NCBI RefSeq assembly: GCF_002224645.1
Contig: NZ_CP022121.1
Location: forward strand, 620,001-684,000
DNA length: 64,000 bases
Source of the DNA: Dehalobacterium formicoaceticum
Lineage (GTDB): Bacteria; Bacillota; Dehalobacteriia; Dehalobacteriales; Dehalobacteriaceae
Reading direction: 5' to 3'
Shown: positions 16,177 through 36,648 of the stretch, piece by piece
How positions within the stretch are numbered: the stretch's first letter is position 1
How the letters are laid out: every line of letters starts with the position of its first letter
The notes under the pieces: generated by a model
The model's database searches: none
Told to the model about the DNA's origin: nothing
Seen by the model: only the letters and a program-made list of their open reading frames with translations
Program-made: the position numbers and the translations under genes

Positions 16177-16259
16177 GTAATTGTCAAAAAATCTACACAT
16201 AGCAAACGCCTTTAGGAACTGAGATAATAACCTCAAGACTATTTGAGGAGGAATTATCT

Positions 16260-16565
16260 ATGACTCTTAAAGAGCAGTCCATGATTAGGCGCCAGCAAGT
16301 AAAAGATTATCTTGCTTCCGGCCAAGCTGCAGCCGCATGGTGCTTAGAAAACAATCTAAACATCACTACACTCCGATACTGGGTGACCAAGTGCAACCGC
16401 GAAGCCAATGCTGATCCCCAGCAAAAAACCTTTATCGAGTTGAAGCAAACATCGATAAAGGAAGTTCCGGTCATTGTTAAGATCGGGGCAGTTTCCATCG
16501 AGCTGTATTCAGGCTTTCAAGCAGAGACTCTGCGCGAAGCTATTGCTGCTATTTATTCCATATGA
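16260..16565 (+). CDS. tnpA: IS66 TnpA accessory protein (copy 1)
   Basis: A 101-residue protein with an N-terminal helix-turn-helix (REQ-type start, then ASGQAAAAWCLENNLNITTLRYW) typical of the IS66 OrfA/TnpA DNA-binding protein. It has GAGGAGGAATT upstream of its ATG. Its stop overlaps the tnpB start (ATGA-type, 4 bp), indicating coupling. The predicted product is identical to that of copy 2 at 36,260. Confidence 0.92.
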   Translation: MTLKEQSMIRRQQVKDYLASGQAAAAWCLENNLNITTLRYWVTKCNREANADPQQKTFIELKQTSIKEVPVIVKIGAVSIELYSGFQAETLREAIAAIYSI

Positions 16566-16918
16566 GCCTAAATACTGCTGGCCTTAGAATATTCCTTTCT
16601 TGCAAGCCCTGCGACATGCGAAAGAGTATCGAAGGTCTTGCTACATTGGTCCAGACGCAGTTACAGATGGACCCTTTTGAAAACTGCCTTTACGTGTTCT
16701 GTAACCGGGCCTGTGATAAATGTAAGATCCTTCATTGGTCGAATAACGGCTGGTGGTTATATTATCGCAAATTGAGTCGTGGCGTTTTCCGATGGAAGTT
16801 TTACGAAAACAAACAGGTCCTTGAGGTCTCTGAACGGCAGTTTAGGTGGCTTTTAGATGGTTTATCAATGGATCAGCCATCCGCACATAAGCCTGTTAAG
16901 CAGCGGATAATTCTTTAA
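16562..16918 (+). CDS. tnpB: IS66 TnpB protein (copy 1)
   Basis: A 118-residue protein with the family pattern LSCKPCDMRKSIEGLATLV, FVFCNRA-like YVFCNRACDKCKILHW, and YYRKLSRGVF. This IS66 OrfB is required for transposition in studied members, though its biochemistry is unresolved; it is unrelated to the RNA-guided TnpB of IS605. It overlaps tnpA by 4 bp and precedes tnpC by 108 bp. Confidence 0.95.
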   Translation: MSLNTAGLRIFLSCKPCDMRKSIEGLATLVQTQLQMDPFENCLYVFCNRACDKCKILHWSNNGWWLYYRKLSRGVFRWKFYENKQVLEVSERQFRWLLDGLSMDQPSAHKPVKQRIIL

Positions 16919-17026
16919 CCGGTTTTGCTAAAATAATTTAATGAAATTGCCGTATTTTCCCCTGTTTCAGGGCTTTTTACCGCTATTATCCTGTAATTTT
17001 ACGTTAGGTTCTTATATAATAAGGAT

Positions 17027-18658
17027 ATGAATAACGTGATAAAGTTACCTCAAAAACCACAACTGAATTACAGAGAAATGTCACAAGCAGACCTGGCTGC
17101 CCACTGCGAAAAGCAGGATAAGGCCATTGCCGAACTGACTCAAAACATGAATCGCCTCATTGAGATGATTCGTTTGAATAACCATAAGAAGTATGGTTCC
17201 AGCGGTGATTCTGTATCCTATCCCGAGGGAATGGAACAACTCTGCTTATTCAACGAAGTTGAAGTCACTGCTCAAAAAGGAGCGTCAGAACCAACTTTTG
17301 AAGAAGCAACGGCGAAGACCCCTAGAAAACCCAAACAAAAGGGTAAGCGTGAACAAGACTTCAAAGATTTGAAGGTCACCGTCATTGAACATGAGCTTCC
17401 GGCAGAACAGCAGGTTTGTCCAGTGTGTGACAGTCCCCTACACGATATGAAGGTTGAAATTACTAAGACACTGAAACTTGTACCGGCCCATTTCGAAGTT
17501 GAGGAACACCGCCGTCATGTCTATACCTGCCGTACGTGTGAAAAAAATCAAGGCGAAGGTGATAAGATCCCTTTTGTTCGTGCTGACATGCCCAACTTGC
17601 CGATTCCCGGAAGTTTTGCTACCCCGGAGTTGATCGCTGGCATCATCAATAGCAAATATACCAATGCAATGCCACTTTCCCGGATTGAGCGGGAGTTTGA
17701 CCGGATGGACAGCGTCAGGATCTCTAGGCAGAACATGAGCAATTGGGTACTCCAATGTTCGGAGGAATACTTTTCAAGGATCTATACCCATATGAGAAGT
17801 GTCCTTCTGAGCAAAGACATCTTGCACGCCGATGAAACTTGGACCCGTGTTGTGCAGCAGGATGGCAGGGACTCCAAGAAAAAATGCTATATCTGGGTTT
17901 ACTGCAGCGGGGCCCATGATGAGCCAATTATCTATTATGAATTCCATGAAAGCCGGGCTACGGAATCGGCCAAGGAATTTCTAAAGGACTACTCTGGTTT
18001 CTTGCACTCCGATGGCTACGAGGTTTACCATCGTTTGGGGCCGGGAATCACGGTTGTTGGATGTCTTGCCCATATAAAGCGTAAATTTACGGATGCTATT
18101 AAAGCATTAAGTCCGGAGGAGCAAAAGAAAACCGTTTGCTTCAAGGGACAGGAATATTGCGACTACTTGTTCCATATCGAAAAGAAATACAAGGATGCTA
18201 CCCCCGAGGAGCGTCATAACAAGCGCCTCACCCTGTTAAAACCGGTGATGGATGCCTTTTTGTCGTGGCTTAAAGAGACCAAGCCCCTCATTGTACCCAA
18301 ATCCCAAGCTTATGAGGCCGTAAATTATGCGCTGAACCAGTGGCCATACTTTGAGAATATCCTTTTAGATGGTCGCTTAGAGTTGACAAATAATTTGGTG
18401 GAGCGAAATATACGTCCGTTTACAATTGGCCGCAAAAATTGGGTCACCATGAAAACTGATCGGGGTGCACACGATAGCTCGATGGTTTACAGTATCATAC
18501 AAACTGCATTGGCCAATGACCTAAAAGTTTATGAATATCTGGTCTATTTATTGAAACAGATGCCGAATACAAATTTTAACCAATTTCCGGAACTGATTGA
18601 GAAGTTTGTTCCTTGGTCTAAAGAGCTTCCGGCTAACTGCTACAAAACTAAAAATTGA
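17027..18658 (+). CDS. tnpC: IS66 TnpC transposase (copy 1)
   Basis: A 543-residue DDE transposase. There is an N-terminal coiled/basic segment, a zinc-binding region with CPVCDSP and CRTCEKN near residues 130-175, then the catalytic core with Asp in LHADETW, Asp in LHSDGYEVYH and Glu in ELTNNLVERNIRP. Length and motifs are complete, so it should be active. A CCAACC/GGTTGG hairpin with a T-run at 18,671-18,692 terminates it. It is identical to the copy at 34,167. Confidence 0.97.
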   Translation: MNNVIKLPQKPQLNYREMSQADLAAHCEKQDKAIAELTQNMNRLIEMIRLNNHKKYGSSGDSVSYPEGMEQLCLFNEVEVTAQKGASEPTFEEATAKTPRKPKQKGKREQDFKDLKVTVIEHELPAEQQVCPVCDSPLHDMKVEITKTLKLVPAHFEVEEHRRHVYTCRTCEKNQGEGDKIPFVRADMPNLPIPGSFATPELIAGIINSKYTNAMPLSRIEREFDRMDSVRISRQNMSNWVLQCSEEYFSRIYTHMRSVLLSKDILHADETWTRVVQQDGRDSKKKCYIWVYCSGAHDEPIIYYEFHESRATESAKEFLKDYSGFLHSDGYEVYHRLGPGITVVGCLAHIKRKFTDAIKALSPEEQKKTVCFKGQEYCDYLFHIEKKYKDATPEERHNKRLTLLKPVMDAFLSWLKETKPLIVPKSQAYEAVNYALNQWPYFENILLDGRLELTNNLVERNIRPFTIGRKNWVTMKTDRGAHDSSMVYSIIQTALANDLKVYEYLVYLLKQMPNTNFNQFPELIEKFVPWSKELPANCYKTKN

Positions 18659-18670
18659 AAATTCCCACGT

Positions 18671-18694
18671 CCAACCTTTGGGTTGGGCTTTTTT
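18671..18694 (+). terminator. IS66 tnpC terminator (copy 1)
   Basis: CCAACC and GGTTGG form a 6-bp stem with a 4-nt loop, followed by GCTTTTTTG. The mirror image closes the second IS66 copy at 34,131-34,154. Confidence 0.75.
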
Positions 18695-18797
18695 GTTTAT
18701 TTTAAGTGCTTAGGATTTGACAATTACACCAAACTTAGGGTGCATTTTCTTTGTCAAGTAATAAAAATTATTGCGGTTTATTCATAATTTTTAACGG

Positions 18798-18971
18798 TTA
18801 ATTTGTTTTTTTAGGTGCGAAGTTTGAGTTAGTAATCTCATCAACCTCCTTTTCTTCATAGTAGTTAAGGAACATTTCAACATGCTGGCAATATGCCTTA
18901 GCCGTAGAAGTGCTGTAATTCTTTAGTTTTAGATCCTTCTGCAGGCTCGGCACCAACATATTCCTTTCCAT
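18798..18971 (-). pseudogene. Truncated tyrosine recombinase, N-terminal core-binding domain only
   Basis: A 57-residue frame starting ATG 18971 after GGAGG. It has the SAM-like integrase N-terminal pattern: LQKDLKLKNYSTSTAKAYCQHVEMFLNYY. The catalytic domain with its R-H-R-Y residues is missing: the frame stops after about one third of a normal enzyme. It lies 70 bp inside the left IS66 copy, so it is probably a gene end cut when the cassette was captured, or a relic of an older mobile element. Confidence 0.75.
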
Positions 18972-19045
18972 TTGAATCATCCTCCTTTGTTTATGGGCAT
19001 AAAAATAGCCCTACTCGTTATGAGCAGAGCCTAAATTATCAACAT

Positions 19046-19291
19046 TCAAATTTTACTTAGTTCCCAAACTCCCCTTGGGCTGATTTCTTTTGTTTTCATG
19101 ATTCCACTTTTCCTAAGTTGTGTAGCTGCCCACCTGGCATCATACTGCCATGTATAAAATAAATCACCTGATTTCCTGAGTTCCGTTTCATAGTTGTTCC
19201 ATATATATCTGCTAACTTCAACTATAGTAGCACTTCCTGCGTTGGTCTTGAGAGCTTCGACAACTATATCGGGTAAGTTTTCTTTTACCAT
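19046..19291 (-). CDS. Small winged-helix-like protein, unknown function
   Basis: An 81-residue protein with a strong GGGGGAGGAG site before ATG 19291. The pattern IVVEALKTNAGSATIVEVSR, then WQYDARWAATQLRKSG and a closing RGVWELSK is that of a compact winged-helix domain, as in Mrr-N-like or restriction-associated DNA-binding proteins. It probably binds DNA. There is no link to the methyltransferase operon except strand and proximity. Confidence 0.6.
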   Translation of the reverse strand: MVKENLPDIVVEALKTNAGSATIVEVSRYIWNNYETELRKSGDLFYTWQYDARWAATQLRKSGIMKTKEISPRGVWELSKI

Positions 19292-19379
19292 TCATATACT
19301 CCTCCCCCTCTATTTCTTTCACATAACTCTTGCATTTGTGAACCAATGTCGTCTATTAAGCCCAAAATGATTTATTAGG

Positions 19380-19403
19380 CGACATAGTGTCGTGAATATT
19401 CAC
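19380..19403. promoter_or_regulatory. Pair of overlapping palindromes upstream of the winged-helix gene
   Basis: CGACATAGTGTCG (19380-19392) and GTGAATATTCAC (19392-19403) are adjacent perfect palindromes. A further TGTCG lies about 35 bp to the left. They sit about 90 bp upstream of ATG 19291, a plausible operator or recombination half-site. No binding protein can be named. Confidence 0.4.
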
Positions 19404-20139
19404 TATAAACAAACCAAACAGTCATTAATAATATAGATTATCTGCAGTTTTAAATAATCCTATTTTCTGGTTATTTCCTTTCTATTTCCACGGGTTACAA
19501 CAAATTCCTTTAAAATAACAAAAAAAAGACAGTAAAAATCTGCCTTTCTATTTTCACACCTTGTCAGGGCTTATCCCTTATTTCCTCCCCCGATTAATGG
19601 TACATATACTAATTTATCGGCCCGATCAACCCTTCTTTTCTCCTGCCTAATTTGTCCCTGTTTTTTAGGGAGCTTTACACACATATACTCGTTTGCCCTG
19701 TTTGTGGTGCATACCCGCAAAAAACCGCCTTTATTTATGATACGGATGTCCGTAACGGGGCTAACGGATAATAGCTCCCAACTATTATAAACCAACATTC
19801 GGAAAGTTTTGGAGTCACACCAGCTAAAAGGGATATTGCTCCAAAACACGCGAGTTGAGAGCTGCTTTAGGTAAGGTCATCGATTTCTGGACCAGTTAGA
19901 CTGGAATAAAGGAGAAAAATTAATTACCTATTCTATATGCGCTTCAAGATTAGAATAAATCAACATTAGGCAGTCTGCAAGATGTACCTGACTGTCTGTT
20001 ATTTATGCTAAAAAATAGGGTTATTAGATGCTAGGAAATAAAAAAAAAGGTAAAAAAACCCCCTGCTACAAATTTATTATCGTTTTCATTTTATCAATCC
20101 AAAGAAAACACCAAATTATTTACACGCCAAATAAAAGAC
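19404..20139. other. Low-content region with one weak frame and a terminator-like hairpin
   Basis: No convincing gene. A leftward 92-codon frame (19571-19849) is open, but its composition and lack of a good ribosome site make it doubtful. Just downstream of it, on the minus strand, AGGCAG/CTGTCT with a T-run (19545 to 19517) looks like a terminator, hinting that something is transcribed leftward here. The stretch may hold decayed sequence from before the cassette was assembled. Confidence 0.4.
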
Positions 20140-20826
20140 TCATTCAAATATATGAACACTGACACAAGGGTCGTCTTTCAGGACATAGTATCCTTTTTTT
20201 CTATCGATAATACTTGCTTCTTTTAATTCTTTTAATGCTTGCACGACCATTACACGTGAAGAACCGATCATATCAGCTAGTTCTTGTTGGGTGACTTTTA
20301 GGTCTATCAACAGGCCCCATGCTTCTTTCTGCCCATATTCGTTAGCAAATCTATAAAACAGGTTTAATAATTTTTCCTTTACCGTCTGTCTGGTCTCTTC
20401 TCCCTGTTTCTGTAAGTTTTCATAACGTTTTTTCCCTAAGTAACTAATAACCCTCCAGGCAAATGAAGAATCCTGTTGAATCGATTCTTTAAATTGTTGC
20501 CTATTAAAACAACAGATATATGCATCTTCCATGGCCACTGCACTTGATAGTTCTTTTTGGTCTTGATATAATGACAACTCACCAAGAATCTCCCCAGGGC
20601 CACAGACATCCAGAATTGTTTCGTGACCATCCTTAGTGGTTTGAACCATCTTCAGCTTACCTGACTTAATGAGATAAACAGTGCTAACCATCTCGTCCTG
20701 ACGGAAAAGATAATCTCCTTTGACCAGCTTTTTTTTCGTCGTGCATCTGCACAAATTACTGAACTGCTGATTTTCAAGTCCTTGAAATAGTTCTAATTCC
20801 TGTAGGCAGATAATGCACCGTTTCAT
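20140..20826 (-). CDS. Crp/Fnr-family regulator with N-terminal cysteines
   Basis: A 228-residue protein. A cyclic-nucleotide-type beta-barrel (about 20-130) is followed by a dimer helix and a C-terminal winged helix with VTQQELADMIGSSRVMVVQALKEL. Cysteines at 4, 7, 26 and 28 (C-x2-C, then C-x-C) suggest a metal or Fe-S site, although their spacing differs from E. coli FNR. A redox or oxygen sensor controlling the cassette would make sense for an O2-sensitive corrinoid pathway; this is inferred. AGGGGGT precedes ATG 20826, and the gene is separated from its upstream neighbour by a strong terminator. Confidence 0.85.
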   Translation of the reverse strand: MKRCIICLQELELFQGLENQQFSNLCRCTTKKKLVKGDYLFRQDEMVSTVYLIKSGKLKMVQTTKDGHETILDVCGPGEILGELSLYQDQKELSSAVAMEDAYICCFNRQQFKESIQQDSSFAWRVISYLGKKRYENLQKQGEETRQTVKEKLLNLFYRFANEYGQKEAWGLLIDLKVTQQELADMIGSSRVMVVQALKELKEASIIDRKKGYYVLKDDPCVSVHIFE

Positions 20827-20910
20827 ATTCGTACCCCCTAAAAAGGCTTATAACTCATTAATAGGTTATAATAGAAATATTGAAGTGTCAATGTCATCAA
20901 TAAGTCACAT

Positions 20911-20955
20911 AACATATAATAATCCCGCCTGTAAAAAGCGGGATTATTATATGTT
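20911..20955 (-). terminator. Strong symmetric terminator after the PNPOx-like gene
   Basis: AACATATAATAATCCCGC and GCGGGATTATTATATGTT form a perfect 18-bp stem with a 9-nt loop. It lies 8 bp past the stop of the leftward flavin-type gene and marks the downstream end of the long leftward transcript; it also isolates the Crp gene. Confidence 0.9.
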
Positions 20956-20962
20956 AAAAATA

Positions 20963-21271
20963 TTACAGTAGTGCTTCAGCCTTTTCTGCCTTAAAAAGAA
21001 CTTGTTTATCTTCAATGCAAGCTTTGCCAGTCAGTCGGAAACCTTTAGGACCACCTTCCATCGTGGCAATTATCACCTGCATTTTTCCGTTCGCTTTAAT
21101 GTTCTGCTGGGTTTTTTCCATCTTATAAATATCAAAACCTAAGATATTATTTTCTTTGATTTCACCTTTACCCACCACAATAGCATGTGGATCTCCATCT
21201 ATTGAAACTGTAACAATAGTGATAAACGGAGCTTTTACTACCATATCTTTAATTTCGTCAGTAAACACCAT
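20963..21271 (-). CDS. Pyridoxamine 5'-phosphate oxidase-like (flavin-binding) protein
   Basis: A 102-residue split-barrel protein. It has the family layout: a start helix, PFITIVTVSIDGDPHAIVVG, and a central strand region ending GGPKGFRLTGKACI. These small proteins bind FMN or F420 and often serve in redox reactions. As the last gene of the leftward cassette it may supply electrons for corrinoid reactivation, but this is speculative. AAGGGAGTG precedes its ATG. Confidence 0.75.
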   Translation of the reverse strand: MVFTDEIKDMVVKAPFITIVTVSIDGDPHAIVVGKGEIKENNILGFDIYKMEKTQQNIKANGKMQVIIATMEGGPKGFRLTGKACIEDKQVLFKAEKAEALL

Positions 21272-21322
21272 GTAACTTCACTCCCTTTAAATAATTTAAT
21301 TATTACCATTTTGGATCAATCA

Positions 21323-21931
21323 TTACAAACTCTTGACGGTTACGCTAACTTTCTCCAATGCTTCAACCACATTCTGTTTAAAAGTGGTAAGACCAACATA
21401 CTCAATTTCAATCGGCACCTGGGTATACTCGAAAAAATCTAGGATATCTTCATCATCGAATTCAACAACACCTGTATCCAGAAGCAGGATTTTGTCGTAA
21501 AAACCAAAATTTTGCCTTGCATCTATCTCGTCCCACCCCTGTCCTTGCTTGAAGATATCCTGCCAGTTCCGAAGCCAGCCAGGAGTGAGGTAAAAAACTC
21601 GTGCAGACTTCTCAATTTCCTCCTTGCGTTTATTGTCCAAAATTAGTTCGATGCAGTTACCTTTGAGCAACCGAACAACATGATATTGTTTTGTAAACTC
21701 GTCAAGCTCTGGGTGGCACATAGACCCAAAAAATAGTAATCTTTTTTCCTGGGTTACGTCATCCAGTGCATCAGTTATGCCTTTTCTCAGCTTATTATAG
21801 TCAACATGTAAAGCAGGTGGTAAATAAGTTATTTTGATGTCTTTACTAAATATCAATTCCTCACTTATTTGTTCTAGTACCTGTTCAAGCTCTGGTTGGA
21901 AAACACCGCAGGCAACAATGCACAACTCCAT
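21323..21931 (-). CDS. DUF1638 protein, first of two
   Basis: A 202-residue protein starting after AAAGGAGGCG. It begins CIVACGVFQPELEQVL and has YLPPALHVDYNKL and a middle GSMCHPEL, the conserved Cys and His positions of DUF1638. The family is frequently encoded beside corrinoid methyltransferases and has no established reaction. A second, divergent member is at 26,313. The pair suggests two related but non-identical tasks, such as cofactor or subunit handling. Confidence 0.8.
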   Translation of the reverse strand: MELCIVACGVFQPELEQVLEQISEELIFSKDIKITYLPPALHVDYNKLRKGITDALDDVTQEKRLLFFGSMCHPELDEFTKQYHVVRLLKGNCIELILDNKRKEEIEKSARVFYLTPGWLRNWQDIFKQGQGWDEIDARQNFGFYDKILLLDTGVVEFDDEDILDFFEYTQVPIEIEYVGLTTFKQNVVEALEKVSVTVKSL

Positions 21932-22208
21932 ATTGAGATCGCCTCCTTTCTGGCTATAATTGATTCTTATGCTTCAATATTTAATATTATCTGTCCAGCC
22001 TAATTAATAGTAGCACTGATAGAAGATTTAAAATGCTAAATATTTTACATTAATTTATCTTTTTTCTAATAATATCAGCAAAGAACTACACTCTATTATG
22101 GTCATTCCGGATCTTCGTACACAACCTTAGTTATTTCTTAGTTCGCATTTCTAACCAATATGTACTCGATAATTAAATGACTTCCTCCCATAATAAGAAT
22201 TATGCATG

Positions 22209-23402
22209 TCATTTTGTTTGTGCATAGAATAAATTATTAAACAGAAGAGGAGAAATAGTACATGTAATTATTGCGACTAAAATAATTGTGGCATTTAATG
22301 CACCACTGATGATTCCCATCTTATAACCAATCGTACCTACTGCAATGATAAGACTGAGTCTTGATGATGACAAAGTAGCTGCAGCTATCGATTTTTTCCA
22401 TGAATAGATAAATCGCAGAAAGATCGAAGGCATTAAGTTTACAAAATAGATAATTGCTAAAAATACGGGTAATAAATACATTGACTCAGGATTATTTATA
22501 ATATCTTTTACATTAAAATTTACCCCTACCATGATAAAAAACAGCGGAATAAAGAAACCATATCCAATCGCATCTAATTTTTGATATATTTGTGATGTAG
22601 CTCGGTCATTAATCAGGGAAACAATTAATCCTGCTAAGAAAGCTCCAAGAATCATTTCTGTTTTTAATAGCTGGGCAAGCGTCATGAACATAATTAATAA
22701 AGCAATAGTTCCTCTAACCTTTATCTGTGATGTTTTATGTGCCAGCTCTTCCATCATTGGATATTTCATTATTTTATTTCCTGCTTTATATACCAGAAAA
22801 AATGCTGGGATTAATAACAAAATTAATAGAATTTCAAAAACAGAACTGGAGCTAGTTAAGGTAACAAATAATGAAAGTAAAATCATGGTGGAGAAATCGG
22901 CTAATAATGCAGTTATCAATATTATTTGGCCGTATTCCTCATTTAATAAGCCTTTTTCTTTAAGGATTGGTACGACAATTCCAACAGAAGTACTACAGAA
23001 CACAATAACAAAAAGAGTAATATTGGGTATTAACCCATAAATTTTCAGTAAAAAAGCTATGATAAATGACAAGATGAATGAAGTTAAGAATAAAATACTT
23101 GCAACAAAAAATGGTTGCTGAGTTAATTGACCTTTTTTACTGGAGGGACCAATCAATTGAAGATTTATTTCTAATCCTGACATGAACATAAGAAAAGCAA
23201 AACCTAATTGAAATAGAAAATCTAACCAGACACTTTCAGATACCAAATTTAAACCACTTTTTCCTATTACTATTCCGGCGACTATTTCACCAACTACAAT
23301 AGGAATCGAAATAAACTTTATTCGATTAACAGCTGCAGGTATCACAGCTGCAACAAAAACTATTAATAATAAAGAAGAATAAGAGAATACTTCATTTGTC
23401 AT
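22209..23402 (-). CDS. Kef/CPA2-type cation:proton antiporter
   Basis: A 397-residue membrane protein with about 12 hydrophobic helices and no C-terminal RCK/TrkA domain. ATG 23402 is chosen because GAGGTAG lies just upstream. Typical CPA2 features are visible, for example GEIVAGIVIGKSGL in the N-terminal part and LLADFSTMILL in the middle, whose Asp is the likely ion-binding residue. It would exchange Na+ or K+ for H+, which fits export of acid formed when a halogenated or O-methyl substrate is consumed; that link is inferred. Flanking gaps (277 and about 100 bp) hold nothing clear. Confidence 0.85.
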   Translation of the reverse strand: MTNEVFSYSSLLLIVFVAAVIPAAVNRIKFISIPIVVGEIVAGIVIGKSGLNLVSESVWLDFLFQLGFAFLMFMSGLEINLQLIGPSSKKGQLTQQPFFVASILFLTSFILSFIIAFLLKIYGLIPNITLFVIVFCSTSVGIVVPILKEKGLLNEEYGQIILITALLADFSTMILLSLFVTLTSSSSVFEILLILLLIPAFFLVYKAGNKIMKYPMMEELAHKTSQIKVRGTIALLIMFMTLAQLLKTEMILGAFLAGLIVSLINDRATSQIYQKLDAIGYGFFIPLFFIMVGVNFNVKDIINNPESMYLLPVFLAIIYFVNLMPSIFLRFIYSWKKSIAAATLSSSRLSLIIAVGTIGYKMGIISGALNATIILVAIITCTISPLLFNNLFYAQTK

Positions 23403-23502
23403 ATATACTACCTCAATCATAAATTATTATAATAACAGGCATCCTTAAAAGACTTATAAAAATTCCACTTAAAAATATAGTAAAGAGGATAATCATGATC
23501 TT

Positions 23503-24375
23503 TTATTTCTGAATTAATTCTATCCCCCAAATGCAGGGCTGATCCATCTTCATTGGACCCCATGCTATACACCTGTGACCCACAACAATAGGTTCAGTTA
23601 ACTCATCCAGCAACCCGGCCAGTGCCTGGCCATAGGTGGAAGCTTTACCGGTGTCAATAGCATACGAGTGGACCATATCTGTGTTTTCAAGTGCTGCGGA
23701 GGTTCGGCCACAAAGATGGATCAGAAATCTCCCCCCAACTTCTTTTATCCCATTAATTATTCGCAGGTTTGATGGTCCGCTAAAATCCCGGTAAATAGTT
23801 GGTCCTATAACATCCGGTACACCTACCGCGTCCTCAAAGGAAATAATTGAGGCACCCCTTTTTACACCCTCAATACCATATTGAATAACACTCTTTTCAA
23901 TAACAGCCATGATTTCCTTGATTTGTGCTGGATCCTTACGCAAGCCACGGTAAAAGATTGTATGATTTATCAAGGCATAAATAATCGTGAATGGACCGAC
24001 AATGTTGAGTATTACTTTTTCACCCGACTCAGCCAGGATCCCGACAGCATCCAGTACTTCTCCAATTCGACCTTTAGAAATATCTGGCGCTTGGATACCG
24101 GATAGTTCTTCAATAGACGAGAAGCGGTGGCCATTTGGTCTTGGTCGATGCATAGCATCGCCCATTTTTATATATGCTCCGAAGGCTTCTGCTTCGACCG
24201 TGACACAAAAAGGCACCTTGGCAAACACATCGTCCTGGTATTTCTTTAGCACTCTGGCAAGAGCAACTATGTTATTTTTATCCGTGTAAGCCTCCGGGAA
24301 AGTTATCCCAGCTTCCCCTAAAACCTCTTCAGGAATATGATCTTGATTATGTCCAGGACATTTAAATTCCACCAT
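23503..24375 (-). CDS. Uroporphyrinogen decarboxylase-family methyltransferase (short, MtaA-like)
   Basis: A 290-residue protein with ATG 24375 after TTGGAGGG. It keeps the UroD/MtaA fold pattern and a zinc-type HLCGRT motif in the C-terminal third, plus HRCIAWGP near the end. It lacks roughly 40 residues at the N-terminus relative to the 337-residue paralogue at 27,865. Members of this group transfer methyl groups between corrinoid proteins and thiol or other acceptors. Of the three UroD proteins here it is the most distant from the corrinoid-protein gene. Confidence 0.8.
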   Translation of the reverse strand: MVEFKCPGHNQDHIPEEVLGEAGITFPEAYTDKNNIVALARVLKKYQDDVFAKVPFCVTVEAEAFGAYIKMGDAMHRPRPNGHRFSSIEELSGIQAPDISKGRIGEVLDAVGILAESGEKVILNIVGPFTIIYALINHTIFYRGLRKDPAQIKEIMAVIEKSVIQYGIEGVKRGASIISFEDAVGVPDVIGPTIYRDFSGPSNLRIINGIKEVGGRFLIHLCGRTSAALENTDMVHSYAIDTGKASTYGQALAGLLDELTEPIVVGHRCIAWGPMKMDQPCIWGIELIQK

Positions 24376-24493
24376 TCTTCCCTCCAATAAAGTAAACTAG
24401 TAATATTTACTTATAAAATTTATAATTACCATATATTACTATTATTAGCCCTCCTAAAACTAACTTGCGTTTTAGCCAGTCATTGATCTTAGT

Positions 24494-27851: not shown

Positions 27852-27864
27852 ATCGTCCCCCCCT

Positions 27865-28878
27865 TTACTCGTACCGCCCAAATTTTTCTGCAGCTCTAAC
27901 CATGGCCTCTACATTTTCCGGCGGTACATCAGCGGTAATTTCACAACCCGGTGACAGCATGTACTGTCCGCCTTCCTTGGCGGCAGTGATGATCTCTCCG
28001 CATTTTTCCTCTACTTCCTCTGCGGAAGCCTGGGGCAAAAAGACAATATGGTCTAGGTTTCCGGCAAAACCAAGCTTTCCGGCATATTTCTTTTTAAATT
28101 TGAGCATGTCTGTGTGGTGTCCTAAACTGACCATCTGCAGTTTTTCCATGTCAGCCAGAACATCCCCGTTTAGATCAAGATGAGTATCTACTTTCCCGCA
28201 CATGTGCAAAATGTTATATTCGTAGGTGAGCGCCTGCCTTAAATATGGGATGTAAAATTCGGTCATCGTTGCTGGCGCGAACATCTGCAGGTCGTGTTCA
28301 CATATCACTAGGAAAGATGCCCCCGCTTCCTTTAATGCTTGAGCATAAGCGTTCACTACTTCTGTGCTTTTCTGGATCAGGGCATGCATAAATTCTTTTT
28401 TTCGGACACTCTTGATGAAATTCTCATAGGGAAATAGCTGCATTGAGAAGGTAAACGGCCCGGTTACATACGCACCTACCGGAACGTCTGTACTTTCCGC
28501 CAGGATCCTCGTCCCCTCTACAGTCACTTTTGAACCAGGAGCTTTAGCAAAATCCGGCATCTTAAAATTTTTAATATCTTCTTCTGTTAAAATAGGATTC
28601 TTCGTGATCCACGGGTATTTGTCAGGGGGATAAAAAAGTGTTCCGCCGCACGCTTCAACTACCGGCCAACTTGGTTCCACCTGGATCGCCACCGAATCAT
28701 ACTTGTACCGATTTAATGCCTTTAGGTGCGCCTCAGCTGCTCTCCTCGCATCCTTGTACATTACATCAAAAGTTAAACCCTGACTAACTCCTGCATGATC
28801 TCCAACCTGGGCAAGTACAGGTACCCGATCAGGTATCTTTCCGTCTAAAGTAGCAAAAACTCTCTCTCTCGAATTCAT
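27865..28878 (-). CDS. Uroporphyrinogen decarboxylase-family methyltransferase (MtaA-like)
   Basis: A 337-residue protein of normal MtaA/UroD length, starting ATG after GAGGTGAC. It begins NSRERVFATLDGKIPDRVPV, with zinc-type ILHMCGK in the C-terminal half and the closing LSPGCEITADVPPENV. The His-x-Cys plus distal Cys matches the zinc ligands of MtaA, which moves a methyl group from the corrinoid protein to a thiol. In an acetogen-type host the acceptor need not be coenzyme M. It is 12 bp from the response-regulator gene. Confidence 0.88.
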   Translation of the reverse strand: MNSRERVFATLDGKIPDRVPVLAQVGDHAGVSQGLTFDVMYKDARRAAEAHLKALNRYKYDSVAIQVEPSWPVVEACGGTLFYPPDKYPWITKNPILTEEDIKNFKMPDFAKAPGSKVTVEGTRILAESTDVPVGAYVTGPFTFSMQLFPYENFIKSVRKKEFMHALIQKSTEVVNAYAQALKEAGASFLVICEHDLQMFAPATMTEFYIPYLRQALTYEYNILHMCGKVDTHLDLNGDVLADMEKLQMVSLGHHTDMLKFKKKYAGKLGFAGNLDHIVFLPQASAEEVEEKCGEIITAAKEGGQYMLSPGCEITADVPPENVEAMVRAAEKFGRYE

Positions 28879-28890
28879 GTCTTAGTCACC

Positions 28891-29706
28891 TCACAGTTTA
28901 TTTAGTAGATCTTTCCAGTCGTCTTCTTTCCCTTCTTGGATGTGATAACTGGAAGGAGTGGTCCCAACCTTTTGACTGAACACCTTGCTGAAATAATCGG
29001 GATCCTGAAATCCGGTTTCACGGGCAATGGTCTTGATGGGAAGATTTGTATTCTCCAAAAGGACTTTAGCCCGTTCAATCCGAGATTGGATTACATATTC
29101 TTTAAATGTCATGCTCTCTTCTTTACTGAACAAAGTACTGAAATAGCTCATACTAAATCCCACATGGTCGGCTACTTCTTTCAATGTCAGCTGTTTTCTA
29201 AGGTTTTGCCGAACATATGACTTGGCTGAGTTAATGACGCGTTTAGTTGAGTCTAAAGGGTTCCATGAATTAATGTCTTCAGAAGTATTTTCTTCATCTT
29301 TCTCAGATATCAAATTTTGAGGATCTACCATTTTCCAAAAAGCATTGACAATTTCTCGCCGGTGTACCGGTTTCAGGAGATAATCTTTAGCTTGCAGATT
29401 TAAGGCCATGCGCAGCATAGGATAATCACCATAGGCTGATATGAATGTGAACTTTACCTCTGGATAATGCAACTTGATCTGTCCCGCTACATCCAATCCG
29501 TTTTTCCCTGGCATCCGTACATCTAAAAACGCCACTGAAATATCCTGCCGGCTCAATATTTCCATTGTTTCATTACCATCTTGCGCCTGGAAAACCTGAA
29601 TATGGTAATTCTTGTCGCATCTTGCGTTACTGGTAATAGTTTCAATAATTACAGCCCGCTCCAATGATTCATCATCCGCAACCAATAATCGGATTGTCTC
29701 TGCCAT
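28891..29706 (-). CDS. AraC-type response regulator
   Basis: A 271-residue protein with ATG 29706 after GGGAGGG. The receiver domain (about 1-120) has acidic residues at the start and phospho-acceptor Asp 62 in FLDVRMPG. The C-terminal two-helix-turn-helix AraC domain includes SYFSTLFSKEESMTFKEYV and DYFSKVFSQKVGTTPSSY. It is placed between two UroD genes, inside the operon it presumably controls. Its partner is most likely the PocR histidine kinase at 31,908. Confidence 0.93.
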   Translation of the reverse strand: MAETIRLLVADDESLERAVIIETITSNARCDKNYHIQVFQAQDGNETMEILSRQDISVAFLDVRMPGKNGLDVAGQIKLHYPEVKFTFISAYGDYPMLRMALNLQAKDYLLKPVHRREIVNAFWKMVDPQNLISEKDEENTSEDINSWNPLDSTKRVINSAKSYVRQNLRKQLTLKEVADHVGFSMSYFSTLFSKEESMTFKEYVIQSRIERAKVLLENTNLPIKTIARETGFQDPDYFSKVFSQKVGTTPSSYHIQEGKEDDWKDLLNKL

Positions 29707-29755
29707 AGTAGACCCTCCCTTACAGAAAACTAGACATTCCAGCATATAGGACTAT

Positions 29756-30916
29756 TTAATCCAATTTATTCAGATTGATGGGGAAAGTCCCATATTTATT
29801 TAAAGCATCAATAAACGCACGGACATTTTCCACAGGTGACCCTTGGGGAATCGCGCAAGGCTCAATCATACAACCTCCATTACATGGATACAGCCCCTTG
29901 ATATATTCCTTGACTCGATTTTCAATTATTTCCGGCGTCCCTTCTTTAATCAACTCTGTATGGACTCCCACGGCATAAGCCTTATGAAAAGTATTGGCCA
30001 GCTCGCGAAAAGTCTTCAGATCCCTGCTGGGTCCTTGCTGAGGATCAGGGTCAAGATTTGTCATGACAAATGTTCCTGTTGAAACCTGGCGGGCCAAAAA
30101 CCTTGTCCAATCATCACCAAGATGGCTCAAGCCCCAATAATAGTGAATGAAAGGCAGCGGACTGGCACTTTGAATCATTCTGGCCAGATACGGTGTGTCG
30201 AATTCCCAAAGCTGCTCCGGCCTAAAGTTGGGCACGCTGTTCCAAGCTGCAATAGGTGTAATCCCATGAATCCCGGTTTCTTTAAAAGCCTGAGCAAACT
30301 TTATGGCTGCCTGGGTACATGCCTCAACCACTCTGTGCATTAAAAGAGGCTTTGTTTTCATCCATTTAACGGCCAGAGGGTATCCCAAGATTTGTACGGC
30401 CACCGGGAGAGGCTGCATCGGCGTGGCAATTACTGCATACTCACCTTTTGTCTTTTTCACCAGCTGTTTAAACAGTTCCAGTCTGACCGGCATACGCCCT
30501 TCGGTACGTCCGTCCAAAGCTGCCACTTTTTCTTCCAGTTCTTCAACATCACGTTCACAGGTTATTGCTTCTTTAACAATTTGAGGGTTTGAATCTTTGG
30601 GTCTCTTTAAAGTACACCCTAGGATTTCAGCCTCGACAACGGTCGTTTCAATCCCTGGAAATACTACGTCATAGTCGAATTCTTCAAAAAATTTCACTAT
30701 CGCATCCGAATGCTTTTCGGGATCTGCGGCCGCTTCACTGCAGGAGTAACCATACCGATTGACAATCCATTCTGTAAACAAAAAGCCTGTAGGGATCCTG
30801 TCGGCATGTTCCTGGCACACCGTCAGAACAATCCTCTCAATAGGCAGCAGTCTTTCACCTCTGTCCCTTTTGGCAATGATGTTTTTTACCATTTCCATTT
30901 GCTCTTTACTTGACAT
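29756..30916 (-). CDS. Uroporphyrinogen decarboxylase-like methyltransferase lacking the HxC zinc motif
   Basis: A 386-residue protein starting ATG after GGAGGTG. The overall UroD-type barrel is retained, ending IPQGSPVENVRAFIDALNKYG. At the position of the usual His-x-Cys-Gly the sequence reads FIHYYWGL, so the zinc site of MtaA-type enzymes is absent, while the C-terminus has CNGGCMIEPC. It is encoded 5 bp downstream of the corrinoid protein. By position it is the best candidate for the substrate-facing methyltransferase (MT I) that loads the corrinoid. That is inference. Confidence 0.85.
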   Translation of the reverse strand: MSSKEQMEMVKNIIAKRDRGERLLPIERIVLTVCQEHADRIPTGFLFTEWIVNRYGYSCSEAAADPEKHSDAIVKFFEEFDYDVVFPGIETTVVEAEILGCTLKRPKDSNPQIVKEAITCERDVEELEEKVAALDGRTEGRMPVRLELFKQLVKKTKGEYAVIATPMQPLPVAVQILGYPLAVKWMKTKPLLMHRVVEACTQAAIKFAQAFKETGIHGITPIAAWNSVPNFRPEQLWEFDTPYLARMIQSASPLPFIHYYWGLSHLGDDWTRFLARQVSTGTFVMTNLDPDPQQGPSRDLKTFRELANTFHKAYAVGVHTELIKEGTPEIIENRVKEYIKGLYPCNGGCMIEPCAIPQGSPVENVRAFIDALNKYGTFPINLNKLD

Positions 30917-30921
30917 TTTTA

Positions 30922-31566
30922 TTATTCACCTCCGAGCAATCTTCTGGCTTCCTGTACAGCTCCTTCTGCGTCCTCGGCAAATCCGTCGCCACCGATCCGT
31001 TTCACATATTGAGGAAATACAGCTACTCCTCCCAACAGCACCTTCACTTTGTCCCGTAGAGATTCTTTGACCAGAAGGTCTATTGTGTCTTCAATCCCTT
31101 TTAGGGTGGTGGACATGTAAGAACCAATGCCTAAAATCTCCGGTTGTTCCTTTTTTACCGCTTCAATAAACACATCAGCTGAAACATCTACTCCCAAGTC
31201 GATTACCTCAAAACCATCTGCCCTTAATAGCGCAGCAACAACGTTCTTACCGATGTCATGGACATCTCCTTCAACACTACCAATTACAACTTTTCCGATA
31301 GATTTAGGGGAAGCATCACCTGTCATATAAGGAATGAGTGACTGTACACCGGCATTCATTGCCTCACCAGCCATCATCAGCTCTGGCAGAAAATATTCTC
31401 CTGTTCCGAATTTCCGGCCTGCTTCTCTAGCCCCCGGTGACATCCCGTTGATCATTTCTGTTGGAGTTAATCCTGCTTCAATCCCTTGACTCACCAACTC
31501 TTTGGTTAGATCATCATTACCGTTCAAAACTGCTTCAGTCAATTGCTCTAAAATTTTTTTGCTCAT
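30922..31566 (-). CDS. Corrinoid (B12-binding) protein, MtaC/MtbC type
   Basis: A 214-residue protein of standard length. The N-terminal helical cap domain (about 1-85) is followed by a B12-binding Rossmann domain with DVHDIG at residues 101-106, whose His 103 is the lower cobalt ligand, and a GG pair near 169. It shuttles the C1 group between the substrate-specific methyltransferase and the acceptor methyltransferase. It is the first gene of the structural operon, behind a 341-bp leader, with AAAGGAGT before its ATG. Confidence 0.95.
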   Translation of the reverse strand: MSKKILEQLTEAVLNGNDDLTKELVSQGIEAGLTPTEMINGMSPGAREAGRKFGTGEYFLPELMMAGEAMNAGVQSLIPYMTGDASPKSIGKVVIGSVEGDVHDIGKNVVAALLRADGFEVIDLGVDVSADVFIEAVKKEQPEILGIGSYMSTTLKGIEDTIDLLVKESLRDKVKVLLGGVAVFPQYVKRIGGDGFAEDAEGAVQEARRLLGGE

Positions 31567-31907: not shown

Positions 31908-33203
31908 CTAATTACTTGTAAACAGCGGCATAATTAATGTGGCCTTAGTCCCTTCGATATCCGGGGGTCCCTGCAATTGTAATCCGTATGCGTCGCCAAA
32001 CAGTCGTCTCATTCTTTGATGAATATTTTCCAGGCTGGAGCCTGGGCAATGGCACCAGTGGTCACCATCAGTCACACGCTGTGTATCAATACCTGCTCCA
32101 TCATCTATTACATAAACTAACAAACGATTTCCCGGGATATCCTCATCAACCTTTATCAATAAGCGGTGTTTTCCTGGGACCGATTCGAACCCATGTTTAA
32201 ACGCATTGTCTACCAGTGGTTGTAAAGTAAAAGGAAGAATTTTTACGCTTAGATGTTCTTCTTCTACTAGAATTTTCACGCTAATCCGGTTTCCGAACCT
32301 TAACCGTTGGATACTAAGGTAAGAATTAATGTGATCCAATTCCGTTTTTAAAAAGACCATTTCGATATTTCCCTCAATACCATAGCGGGCCACATCTGCT
32401 AAAGCAAAAACAGCTCCCTCAGTCTCAACCGCTCCTTCAGCAAACGCCAATCGGGCAATTACATTTAGTGCGTTAAAGAGAAAGTGTGGGTTCATTTTGG
32501 CCTGGAGTTCCCTTAGTTCCGCCTGTTTTAGCATCAACTGGTACTCAGTAATTTCTTTTTCCAGATTGACTGTTTTTTGAATTTCTTGAAGCAGACGGTC
32601 TTGATAGGACACCAATTCTTGTTGATAACGGGAAAGACTTTCTGAGACTGTAAGATAATTAGCCAAGGTGGATATTAATGTTGCAACGGCTGTAAACTGA
32701 TCGCCGGAAATTTTGGGAATAGTGTTCAGATGTTTGAAATAATCCCCACATGGTCCATTTGTCCCTTCAGTCAAAGATTCCGCTTCCATAAGCTGAACCG
32801 GGCTGGTAATCAAACATCCTAAAAGAACATTATCTCGGGCATATAGAGGAGCCGAAATAAGTGTGAGGCCACACTTTCCCTGATAAACCTTTGAACGGTC
32901 ATTATGATAACTGTTTTTTAAACCTGTTTCAAAGCAGTACAAACATTGAAAAAAGTGCTTTCTGTCTGAAAAGTGGCTCTGGCACCAATTTGGAAAGGAC
33001 CCTAATGGGGGAGATATGGGAACCGCTCTGTTATCAACAAAGACAATGTTAATCCCTATGACATTAAAAAACATTTTGCTGATCTCCAGCATTGTCTCCC
33101 GAGAAATAATCTCAGCTAAGTGATATGTCCTGTCAATAATGGTACTTATTTTATTTAAAGCTTTATCATTGCTTTGCACCACTACCATCCCCTCATCAAT
33201 CAT
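31908..33203 (-). CDS. PocR-domain sensor histidine kinase (LytS/YesM type)
   Basis: A 431-residue soluble protein. Residues about 28-180 form a PocR-type ligand-binding domain with Cys 74, 87, 90, 111 and 130, which may hold a metal or a corrinoid-related ligand. A coiled coil (about 190-230) leads into a His_kinase domain with phospho-acceptor His 240 in MNPHFLFNA, then an ATPase domain with PLVDNAFKHGF and VIDDGAGI. No membrane helix is present, so it senses a cytoplasmic signal. It is separated from the operon by its own 341-bp gap. A GTTAA-4nt-TTAAC palindrome lies upstream (33,241-33,254). Confidence 0.9.
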   Translation of the reverse strand: MIDEGMVVVQSNDKALNKISTIIDRTYHLAEIISRETMLEISKMFFNVIGINIVFVDNRAVPISPPLGSFPNWCQSHFSDRKHFFQCLYCFETGLKNSYHNDRSKVYQGKCGLTLISAPLYARDNVLLGCLITSPVQLMEAESLTEGTNGPCGDYFKHLNTIPKISGDQFTAVATLISTLANYLTVSESLSRYQQELVSYQDRLLQEIQKTVNLEKEITEYQLMLKQAELRELQAKMNPHFLFNALNVIARLAFAEGAVETEGAVFALADVARYGIEGNIEMVFLKTELDHINSYLSIQRLRFGNRISVKILVEEEHLSVKILPFTLQPLVDNAFKHGFESVPGKHRLLIKVDEDIPGNRLLVYVIDDGAGIDTQRVTDGDHWCHCPGSSLENIHQRMRRLFGDAYGLQLQGPPDIEGTKATLIMPLFTSN

Positions 33204-33752
33204 ATCTATATAATTATATAGAACCTATCAATCAAAATCTGTTAAGTATTTAACAAATTATCAGTTATTCCAAGCTAACACGATAAGGCGCCTTCTTTAT
33301 GCTATAACAACCTTCACCGCTTATTCACACAAACGCTGGAGTCCTTATTCTACTTTCATTATTTGACATATTTAGCTTCAAAGGTAATACGGAATAACAC
33401 TAAATTTATTACTCACAGGACGCCTTCAATTTTTACAATTAGAATATGTTACGATGTACAAATAATAAAAACACCTGCTGATTTAGCGGGGTCACTGAAA
33501 GGCCTACGGTTTTTCGTTGAGAAATTTATTGATTGTTTTGAAAAAGACAATTCAGGACTTGTTTTTAAGCCCCGAACTGTCTTATTTGATCTAATTGATG
33601 GTTTATTGTCCTATGTTTTATCCTATTATTTTATGTATTCGTATTTTCACTTTAATTGCATGCCTCTTCAGAATATAAATACGGATTACTTTGTCTTTTT
33701 TGGGGTTATTATCACGCACAATTACATTGTTTTTTGCAAGAACTTTTTGCAA
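33204..33752. other. Gene-poor region right of the sensor kinase
   Basis: About 550 bp. It contains the kinase promoter region (minus-strand TATAAT-like box next to the start and the palindrome at 33,241-33,254). A rightward frame is open from 33,363 to 33,824, but its hydrophobic, Phe-rich translation matches no family, so it is not called as a gene. The rest is AT-rich and may be remnant DNA. Confidence 0.5.
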
Positions 33753-33834
33753 AAAGTTGCAAGTAATTTTTCCATAGTATTGCAACATTGTGGAAAATGT
33801 AGTTGCAATACTATGGATTTTTAACTTGCAACTT
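33753..33834. repeat. Long imperfect hairpin (MITE-like or structured)
   Basis: Two 33-nt arms, 33754-33786 and 33802-33834, pair through 11 bp (AAGTTGCAAGT) and 15 bp (CCATAGTATTGCAAC), with a 7-nt internal mismatch loop and a 15-nt apical loop. A related TTGCAA-rich stretch lies just to the left. The right arm overlaps the 3' end of the HEPN-like fragment. It could be a miniature transposable element or a terminator-like structured RNA. Confidence 0.7.
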
Positions 33835-34075
33835 TCATTTTACAACAAATAATTATGTTATTATTTAATGTTGCTGTATTTGCTGTACAAACCCATTCTT
33901 GTATGCTTTGTCTTTGGCTAATTCCGTAATGTTTAACGATTATATATTTTAGTAAACATTCTATCACAATACCTCCAAAATGCATTGAGCCAATACGTCT
34001 ACTGTTAGCCTTCATAAACGTTAAATCTTGTGCTCTTTCATTACATGCTTTATTAAACTCCTCAATTGGCGTCAT
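33821..34075 (-). pseudogene. Truncated HEPN-like protein
   Basis: An 84-residue frame starting ATG after AGGAGGT. The first half, RRIGSMHFGGIVIECLLKYIIV, resembles the second helix of HEPN-type proteins (the Gly-x(4)-Glu-Cys-x-Leu-Lys pattern). The C-terminal half runs into the long hairpin and loses similarity, so the gene seems cut. It lies 22 bp inside the right IS66 copy, mirroring the broken integrase at the left end. Confidence 0.5.
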
Positions 34076-34166
34076 TTAAAGTATAACCTCCTATTACGTA
34101 ATTGTCAAATCCTAAGCACTTAAAATAAACAAAAAAGCCCAACCCAAAGGTTGGACGTGGGAATTT

Positions 34167-35798
34167 TCAATTTTTAGTTTTGTAGCAGTTAGCCGGAAGC
34201 TCTTTAGACCAAGGAACAAACTTCTCAATCAGTTCCGGAAATTGGTTAAAATTTGTATTCGGCATCTGTTTCAATAAATAGACCAGATATTCATAAACTT
34301 TTAGGTCATTGGCCAATGCAGTTTGTATGATACTGTAAACCATCGAGCTATCGTGTGCACCCCGATCAGTTTTCATGGTGACCCAATTTTTGCGGCCAAT
34401 TGTAAACGGACGTATATTTCGCTCCACCAAATTATTTGTCAACTCTAAGCGACCATCTAAAAGGATATTCTCAAAGTATGGCCACTGGTTCAGCGCATAA
34501 TTTACGGCCTCATAAGCTTGGGATTTGGGTACAATGAGGGGCTTGGTCTCTTTAAGCCACGACAAAAAGGCATCCATCACCGGTTTTAACAGGGTGAGGC
34601 GCTTGTTATGACGCTCCTCGGGGGTAGCATCCTTGTATTTCTTTTCGATATGGAACAAGTAGTCGCAATATTCCTGTCCCTTGAAGCAAACGGTTTTCTT
34701 TTGCTCCTCCGGACTTAATGCTTTAATAGCATCCGTAAATTTACGCTTTATATGGGCAAGACATCCAACAACCGTGATTCCCGGCCCCAAACGATGGTAA
34801 ACCTCGTAGCCATCGGAGTGCAAGAAACCAGAGTAGTCCTTTAGAAATTCCTTGGCCGATTCCGTAGCCCGGCTTTCATGGAATTCATAATAGATAATTG
34901 GCTCATCATGGGCCCCGCTGCAGTAAACCCAGATATAGCATTTTTTCTTGGAGTCCCTGCCATCCTGCTGCACAACACGGGTCCAAGTTTCATCGGCGTG
35001 CAAGATGTCTTTGCTCAGAAGGACACTTCTCATATGGGTATAGATCCTTGAAAAGTATTCCTCCGAACATTGGAGTACCCAATTGCTCATGTTCTGCCTA
35101 GAGATCCTGACGCTGTCCATCCGGTCAAACTCCCGCTCAATCCGGGAAAGTGGCATTGCATTGGTATATTTGCTATTGATGATGCCAGCGATCAACTCCG
35201 GGGTAGCAAAACTTCCGGGAATCGGCAAGTTGGGCATGTCAGCACGAACAAAAGGGATCTTATCACCTTCGCCTTGATTTTTTTCACACGTACGGCAGGT
35301 ATAGACATGACGGCGGTGTTCCTCAACTTCGAAATGGGCCGGTACAAGTTTCAGTGTCTTAGTAATTTCAACCTTCATATCGTGTAGGGGACTGTCACAC
35401 ACTGGACAAACCTGCTGTTCTGCCGGAAGCTCATGTTCAATGACGGTGACCTTCAAATCTTTGAAGTCTTGTTCACGCTTACCCTTTTGTTTGGGTTTTC
35501 TAGGGGTCTTCGCCGTTGCTTCTTCAAAAGTTGGTTCTGACGCTCCTTTTTGAGCAGTGACTTCAACTTCGTTGAATAAGCAGAGTTGTTCCATTCCCTC
35601 GGGATAGGATACAGAATCACCGCTGGAACCATACTTCTTATGGTTATTCAAACGAATCATCTCAATGAGGCGATTCATGTTTTGAGTCAGTTCGGCAATG
35701 GCCTTATCCTGCTTTTCGCAGTGGGCAGCCAGGTCTGCTTGTGACATTTCTCTGTAATTCAGTTGTGGTTTTTGAGGTAACTTTATCACGTTATTCAT
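34167..35798 (-). CDS. tnpC: IS66 TnpC transposase (copy 2)
   Basis: A 543-residue DDE transposase identical in prediction to the copy at 17,027, with the same zinc-binding and LHADETW / LHSDGYEVYH / ELTNNLVERN catalytic segments. Two intact identical transposases facing each other at the borders would be able to mobilise the whole block. The identity also indicates a recent arrival or ongoing gene conversion. The shared terminator lies at 34,131-34,154. Confidence 0.97.
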   Translation of the reverse strand: MNNVIKLPQKPQLNYREMSQADLAAHCEKQDKAIAELTQNMNRLIEMIRLNNHKKYGSSGDSVSYPEGMEQLCLFNEVEVTAQKGASEPTFEEATAKTPRKPKQKGKREQDFKDLKVTVIEHELPAEQQVCPVCDSPLHDMKVEITKTLKLVPAHFEVEEHRRHVYTCRTCEKNQGEGDKIPFVRADMPNLPIPGSFATPELIAGIINSKYTNAMPLSRIEREFDRMDSVRISRQNMSNWVLQCSEEYFSRIYTHMRSVLLSKDILHADETWTRVVQQDGRDSKKKCYIWVYCSGAHDEPIIYYEFHESRATESAKEFLKDYSGFLHSDGYEVYHRLGPGITVVGCLAHIKRKFTDAIKALSPEEQKKTVCFKGQEYCDYLFHIEKKYKDATPEERHNKRLTLLKPVMDAFLSWLKETKPLIVPKSQAYEAVNYALNQWPYFENILLDGRLELTNNLVERNIRPFTIGRKNWVTMKTDRGAHDSSMVYSIIQTALANDLKVYEYLVYLLKQMPNTNFNQFPELIEKFVPWSKELPANCYKTKN

Positions 35799-35906
35799 AT
35801 CCTTATTATATAAGAACCTAACGTAAAATTACAGGATAATAGCGGTAAAAAGCCCTGAAACAGGGGAAAATACGGCAATTTCATTAAATTATTTTAGCAA
35901 AACCGG

Positions 35907-36263
35907 TTAAAGAATTATCCGCTGCTTAACAGGCTTATGTGCGGATGGCTGATCCATTGATAAACCATCTAAAAGCCACCTAAACTGCCGTTCAGAGACC
36001 TCAAGGACCTGTTTGTTTTCGTAAAACTTCCATCGGAAAACGCCACGACTCAATTTGCGATAATATAACCACCAGCCGTTATTCGACCAATGAAGGATCT
36101 TACATTTATCACAGGCCCGGTTACAGAACACGTAAAGGCAGTTTTCAAAAGGGTCCATCTGTAACTGCGTCTGGACCAATGTAGCAAGACCTTCGATACT
36201 CTTTCGCATGTCGCAGGGCTTGCAAGAAAGGAATATTCTAAGGCCAGCAGTATTTAGGCTCAT
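35907..36263 (-). CDS. tnpB: IS66 TnpB protein (copy 2)
   Basis: 118 residues, identical to the copy-1 product, with the LSCKPCDMRKSIEGLATLV opening and the Cys-rich middle. It overlaps tnpA by 4 bp as in copy 1 and is separated from tnpC by the same 108-bp spacer. No change in either copy suggests inactivation. Confidence 0.95.
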   Translation of the reverse strand: MSLNTAGLRIFLSCKPCDMRKSIEGLATLVQTQLQMDPFENCLYVFCNRACDKCKILHWSNNGWWLYYRKLSRGVFRWKFYENKQVLEVSERQFRWLLDGLSMDQPSAHKPVKQRIIL

Positions 36264-36565
36264 ATGGAATAAATAGCAGCAATAGCTTCGCGCAGAGTCT
36301 CTGCTTGAAAGCCTGAATACAGCTCGATGGAAACTGCCCCGATCTTAACAATGACCGGAACTTCCTTTATCGATGTTTGCTTCAACTCGATAAAGGTTTT
36401 TTGCTGGGGATCAGCATTGGCTTCGCGGTTGCACTTGGTCACCCAGTATCGGAGTGTAGTGATGTTTAGATTGTTTTCTAAGCACCATGCGGCTGCAGCT
36501 TGGCCGGAAGCAAGATAATCTTTTACTTGCTGGCGCCTAATCATGGACTGCTCTTTAAGAGTCAT
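36260..36565 (-). CDS. tnpA: IS66 TnpA accessory protein (copy 2)
   Basis: 101 residues, identical to copy 1, with its helix-turn-helix region intact. The upstream 83 bp to the IS end carry the ribosome site GAGGAGG and presumably the transposase promoter, both oriented into the element. Confidence 0.92.
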   Translation of the reverse strand: MTLKEQSMIRRQQVKDYLASGQAAAAWCLENNLNITTLRYWVTKCNREANADPQQKTFIELKQTSIKEVPVIVKIGAVSIELYSGFQAETLREAIAAIYSI

Positions 36566-36648
36566 AGATAATTCCTCCTCAAATAGTCTTGAGGTTATTA
36601 TCTCAGTTCCTAAAGGCGTTTGCTATGTGTAGATTTTTTGACAATTAC

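Follow-up and report, generated by a model that had tools for sequence, protein, structure and literature searches.

An IS66-bounded unit carrying the dichloromethane mec cassette of Dehalobacterium formicoaceticum: a probable composite transposon flanked by a 240-bp direct repeat

The stretch analyzed here (the window) comprises 64,000 nucleotides of the genome of Dehalobacterium formicoaceticum (contig NZ_CP022121.1, positions 620,001 to 684,000 of the forward strand) and harbors the cassette mecA-mecJ, which enables this bacterium to grow on the pollutant dichloromethane, between two copies of an insertion sequence (IS) of the IS66 family. The whole 20.47-kb block (16177-36648; positions are those of the window unless the genome is named) is in all probability a class I composite transposon that was inserted as one unit with a 240-bp duplication of its target. 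Such a duplication is about 30 times longer than the one the IS66 family is said to make, and long duplications can also be found around solo IS66 copies in other genomes of the phylum.

Structure and Insertion of the mec Unit

The genome of D. formicoaceticum DMC is a single contig of 3,766,545 bp, in which IS66 copies of the mec type are present only twice, at 16177-18727 (+) and 34098-36648 (-), with no solo copy. The original prediction, made from the sequence of the window, had described two facing IS66 elements of the same length, ends and proteins; they are 2551 bp each, inverted, and 100% identical over that length when aligned as nucleotides. The limits it gave for the unit are exact to the base, and the 15.4 kb it placed between the two elements measures 15,370 bp. 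Each copy has intact tnpA, tnpB, and tnpC genes with IS66 Pfam domains (in the left copy at 16260-16565, 16562-16918, and 17027-18658, respectively), and the transposase domain PF03050, the tnpB domain PF05717 and tnpA are all present, which places both elements in the IS66 family. TnpC, of 543 amino acids, harbors the IS66 DDE domain, and 20 aligned relatives all conserve its acidic residues D269, D329, and E459. The inverted ends start with GTAA, as in the IS66 family, the left copy running from GTAATTGTC to GACAATTAC. Both outer junctions of the unit are formed by the tnpA-side IS end (GTAATTGTCAAAAAATC) and both inner junctions by the tnpC-side end (GTAATTGTCAAATCCTAAG).

An exact 240-bp direct repeat, hereafter X, abuts both outer IS66 ends in the same orientation, its left copy (15937-16176, +) ending at the left outer boundary and its right copy (36649-36888, +) beginning at the right one. 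This repeat, absent from the original prediction, is a match far beyond chance and has only two copies in the genome, both at the edges of the unit, which rules out a dispersed repeat. No repeat is common to the two sides of either single mec-flanking IS66, and comparison of the four IS flanks in all pairs gave no 8-bp duplication. Given the tnpA-side ends at both outer junctions and the absence of a repeat belonging to either IS alone, X was duplicated in an event that involved the two outermost ends of the unit and not those of one IS. An IS66-driven inversion was ruled out by the lack of inverted 8-mers, and insertion of a solo IS66 followed by capture of mec by the fact that both outer ends are tnpA-side.

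The unit thus consists of two copies of one IS flanking non-IS cargo, with intact outer ends and a target duplication around the whole rather than around each IS, which is the architecture of a class I composite transposon. Tn5 and Tn10 are composite transposons of this IS-bounded class, and the mec unit shares with them the inverted IS pair around a cargo, the intact outer ends and the direct repeat flanking the entire unit; it differs from them by its IS66 elements, its anaerobic dehalogenation cassette and the 240 bp of its target duplication. Mobility as one block, proposed in the original prediction, is supported by these junctions, from which we infer that the unit moved as a whole.

The target itself can be recognized. 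An IS110-family element (36862-38481, -, with its transposase at 37083-38366), present as a single copy in the genome, adjoins the unit on the right; its limits were set where similarity to the homologue of Candidatus Formimonas warabiya stops. Since the alignment with this homologue starts at about 36860, within the right copy of X, the non-coding end of the IS110 element supplies the final 26-28 bp of X. The left copy of X carries the same 26-28 bp as an orphan IS110 end, the body of the element being found on the right only, which indicates that the target was one contiguous site. The original site was A-X-B with the IS110 element already resident, and the block was then put into it. An Rfam scan gave no match to a bridge RNA of the IS110 element.

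Long Duplications in Related IS66 Copies

Published IS66-family copies duplicate 8 bp (PMC3916326, PMC6778807), a descriptive rule from which the mec unit departs with its 240 bp. It is the rule, rather than the membership of the elements, that is in doubt, because other members with the same transposase type give both 8-bp and long duplications. Candidatus F. warabiya has three solo copies of an IS66 that is 91% identical to that of the mec unit; exact direct repeats of 140, 145, and 280 bp abut both ends of these copies (3/3), and an 8-bp duplication is found at none (0/3). One of them lies in a transposase gene of which the same genome has an uninterrupted paralogue, and an alignment of this paralogue with the joined flanks extends for 565 bp, uninterrupted by any gap even at the insertion point, and contains the 140-bp repeat once. 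Comparable evidence comes from interrupted genes elsewhere. A second, distant IS66-family element of strain DMC (L087, genome positions 2428138-2429643) interrupts a gene of the DedA family, its target duplication of 46 bp being situated just before the domain, and joining the flanks restores the DedA reading frame; in a further case, with a 38-bp duplication lying within a HisRS-type anticodon-binding domain, the domain is restored in the same way.

A survey was made of 42 IS66-family loci from the phylum, the duplication being measured at ends set by the inverted repeats. Loci of the first search had 41-44% TnpC identity to the query; L100 (incomplete) and L103 and L138 (ends not definable) were excluded, and the total with the three Candidatus F. 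warabiya copies was 42 solo copies scored. In these counts, made on assemblies that include several drafts, 20 of the 42 exhibit the canonical duplication (8 bp in 19, 7 bp in one) and 12 a long one, of 16, 38, 46, 46, 53, 65 (one mismatch), 140, 145, 280, 351, 398, and 471 bp. Long duplications hence make up 12 of the 32 informative solo copies, to which the mec composite adds its 240 bp. Duplication length can differ between virtually identical elements: five copies in one genome (G307; L091-L093, L133, and L134), 99.8-99.9% identical, have none, 398, 351, 8, and 65 bp, and two 100% identical copies in another (G015) have 8 and 471 bp. Long and short duplications are scattered among each other in the TnpC tree, which implies at least nine changes. 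At their first and last base, the long duplications lean toward G and C, approximately as the 8-bp ones do (a weak trend in a small sample), and no pattern of helical phasing was found among the lengths.

With IS66 and ISPsy5, the elements studied here share the tnpA-tnpB-tnpC order, the IS66 DDE transposase and the GTAA-type inverted ends, the difference being that the mec unit and its relatives show 16-471 bp besides 8 bp. A likeness in the duplications is offered by IS1549 and IS1634, both of the IS1634 family, in which direct repeats vary from 8 to 514 bp by copy and for which no mechanistic model existed as of 2008 (PMC2266710). Long, copy-dependent direct repeats are common to both, although the transposase family is another one, the mec-unit elements being IS66 by Pfam and their transposase not of the IS1634 type. 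No report of long IS66 duplications was found in the literature searched, which included few subscription papers.

Weighing of Alternative Explanations

Several observations weigh against insertion as a single block with a long duplication. The evidence at the locus comes from one Dehalobacterium genome assembly and no transposition was observed; 10 of the 42 solo copies are without detectable duplication; and outside the phylum all informative plasmid copies (5/5) have 8 bp, although the contrast between the phylum and these copies is not significant (Fisher p = 0.14), the plasmid copies being too few. Besides, exactly the same structure would be yielded if two sister chromosomes had each received the composite, with an 8-bp duplication, at sites separated by 240 bp, and crossing-over inside the block had then produced X-block-X. 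Copies of ISPsy5, itself of the IS66 family, do recombine on sister chromosomes into tandem duplications (PMC3916326). Such an origin is nevertheless unlikely, since two insertions of the same element in the same orientation less than 500 bp apart would be needed in each of 13 cases, so that the crossover would have to recur in more than one third of the informative copies; it also fits poorly with duplications of only 16-46 bp and with four different lengths among the copies of one genome.

Integration by homologous recombination of a circle made of X and the block, formed elsewhere, into a resident X would likewise give X-block-X, and the mec genes of Dehalobacter do sit on a large circularizing element (PMC11578063). 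However, a 20.7-kb circle with X exactly at the outer IS ends would itself need an earlier X-block-X insertion, and, because X contains the IS110 edge, the original target belongs to a locus of this kind, which makes this route very improbable. Least credible of all, to the point of being nearly negligible, is the independent insertion of two IS66 copies around a resident mec operon that never moved as a unit, the case that the original prediction had itself named as contrary to its proposal. Single insertions are frequent for IS66, and the mec cassettes of other genomes lack it, but each element should then have its own two-sided duplication, which neither has, and the two outer sequences would be unrelated, whereas they are duplicates of one another; the lack of any solo IS66 of the mec type in the genome, as well as X and the orphan IS110 end, also speak against it. 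Insertion of the composite as one block is therefore retained, with its current mobility, its donor and its mechanism as matters of inference.

Proposed Mechanism

It can be proposed that the TnpABC machinery would act on the two outermost, tnpA-side IS ends and so move all 20.47 kb. The points at which the two transposon ends join their target strands would be selected separately, as much as some 500 bp apart, and the DNA between them would be copied by the replication or repair functions of the host, giving a long duplication. A fixed stagger is rejected because the observed lengths vary so widely, and the G/C lean at the ends of the long duplications suggests an ordinary join for each transposon end. 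That IS66 transposases, at least in this phylum, operate without a fixed target stagger, their ends being joined at a spacing of 8 to about 500 bp in one transposition event, is favored here with modest confidence. Both the transposase-driven movement and the uncoupled strand transfer would have to be assumed, as would entry of the unit by horizontal transfer.

The mec Cargo

The cargo agrees in gene set and order with the ten-gene cassette mecA-mecJ (gene set in PMC10344839). The regulators, enzymes, reactivase and transporter that the original prediction had listed were all found by domain, namely a sensor kinase, a response regulator, a corrinoid protein, URO-D and MtrH methyltransferases, a RACo reactivase and a transporter. 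All genes are on the minus strand. From right to left, they are mecA (31908-33203), a PocR-domain sensor histidine kinase; mecB (30922-31566), a corrinoid (B12-binding) protein; mecC (29756-30916), a URO-D-type protein 92% identical in Candidatus F. warabiya; mecD (28891-29745), a response regulator with an AraC helix-turn-helix; mecE (27865-28878), a URO-D-type methyltransferase; mecF (26952-27881), an MtrH-type methyltransferase; mecG (26313-26936), a DUF1638 protein; mecH (24494-26320), a RACo-type corrinoid reactivase; mecI (23503-24387), a URO-D-type methyltransferase; and mecJ (22209-23420), a Na/H-exchanger-like membrane protein. They are followed by the second DUF1638 protein of the cargo (21323-21931), a PNPOx-like protein (20963-21271), the homologue of which adjoins mec in a Dehalobacter-like genome, and a Crp-family regulator (20140-20826). 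The left inner edge (18728-20139) consists of non-coding sequence and of gene remnants that other mec loci do not share, the right one (33204-34097) of non-coding sequence with a small gene fragment; the broken genes predicted just inside each IS are thus present as short, non-conserved remnants, as judged by sequence inspection only.

mec Loci in Other Genomes

The mec cassette is known from D. formicoaceticum, Candidatus F. warabiya, Candidatus Dichloromethanomonas and Dehalobacter (PMC10327494, PMC11578063). Mobility or horizontal transfer of mec has already been inferred from nearby transposable elements (PMC10327494, PMC11578063), and the IS66 pair, the limits of the unit and the 240-bp duplication are not described in the main texts of the mec literature searched (PMC10327494, PMC11578063). 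Between D. formicoaceticum and Candidatus F. warabiya, most of the mecA-mecI proteins are 81-94% identical and MecJ 52%. What the loci of Candidatus F. warabiya and of the Dehalobacter-like genome have in common with strain DMC is limited to the cassette and a few neighboring genes; homology of the other mec loci ends inside the cargo, with neither IS66 nor flanks in common, and, unlike in DMC, no IS66 pair or 240-bp duplication is found. As DMC has no solo IS66 of the mec type, the unit presumably arrived from outside already finished. Viral contigs gave no match to mecC or to the empty-site junction of the mec locus.

The cassette itself varies among these genomes. In Candidatus F. warabiya (L005:13959-14108), the stretch between mecF and mecI lacks mecH and almost the whole of mecG, and the mecG remnant that stays suggests a deletion between the two genes. 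In the Dehalobacter-like genome (G206; L008/L009), mecA and mecB are accompanied by a mecC truncated to 344/386 amino acids, and the DUF1638/PNPOx pair lies about 9 kb off.

Genomic Surroundings

A conjugation module is found on the left of the unit (2879-13193, +), with DUF3801, ArdC-N, a VirD4/TraG coupling protein, a VirB4-like ATPase and RadC; still farther left, the genome encodes ParA, a VirB11/T2SSE-type ATPase and an integrase (589.3-590.3 kb). On the right, a defense cluster (39364-63892) combines a SMODS nucleotidyltransferase of the kind found in cyclic oligonucleotide-based antiphage signaling systems (CBASS-like) with HD-domain proteins, a WYL regulator and bacteriophage exclusion (BREX) genes, namely BrxL, PglZ, and a PglX-like methylase, BrxA lying just beyond the window; an IS21 pair at 48221-50586 interrupts this cluster. 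Beyond it, a tyrosine integrase (genome positions 690394-691838) adjoins tRNA-Ser(CGA), located at 691.7 kb. The sole candidate from a search for attachment sites was a 24/27 match to the 3' end of this tRNA at 590.35 kb, beside the other integrase, and it was not accepted as a pair. An integrative element of about 101 kb holding the conjugation genes, mec, and BREX is plausible.

Significance

The mec unit is a concrete vehicle, its ends known to the base, by which anaerobic dichloromethane degradation can spread; previous studies had no more than inferred the mobility of this trait. Its 240-bp direct repeats would let RecA excise, circularize or amplify the cassette. With regard to the family, a fixed length of target duplication, a textbook property of DDE transposons, often fails in the IS66 elements of this phylum, and the long-duplication insertions will escape tools in which IS66 ends are recognized from a duplication of 8 bp. 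The unexplained long duplications of IS1549/IS1634 become testable in a second transposase family, and the virtually identical IS66 elements giving both short and long products in a single genome (G307) constitute a ready-made test system for what sets duplication length. If the proposed joining of the ends is true, long target duplications would be a built-in outcome common to IS66 and the unrelated IS1634 family, and each long-duplication insertion, the mec unit included, would be born with repeats that enable its precise excision and amplification.
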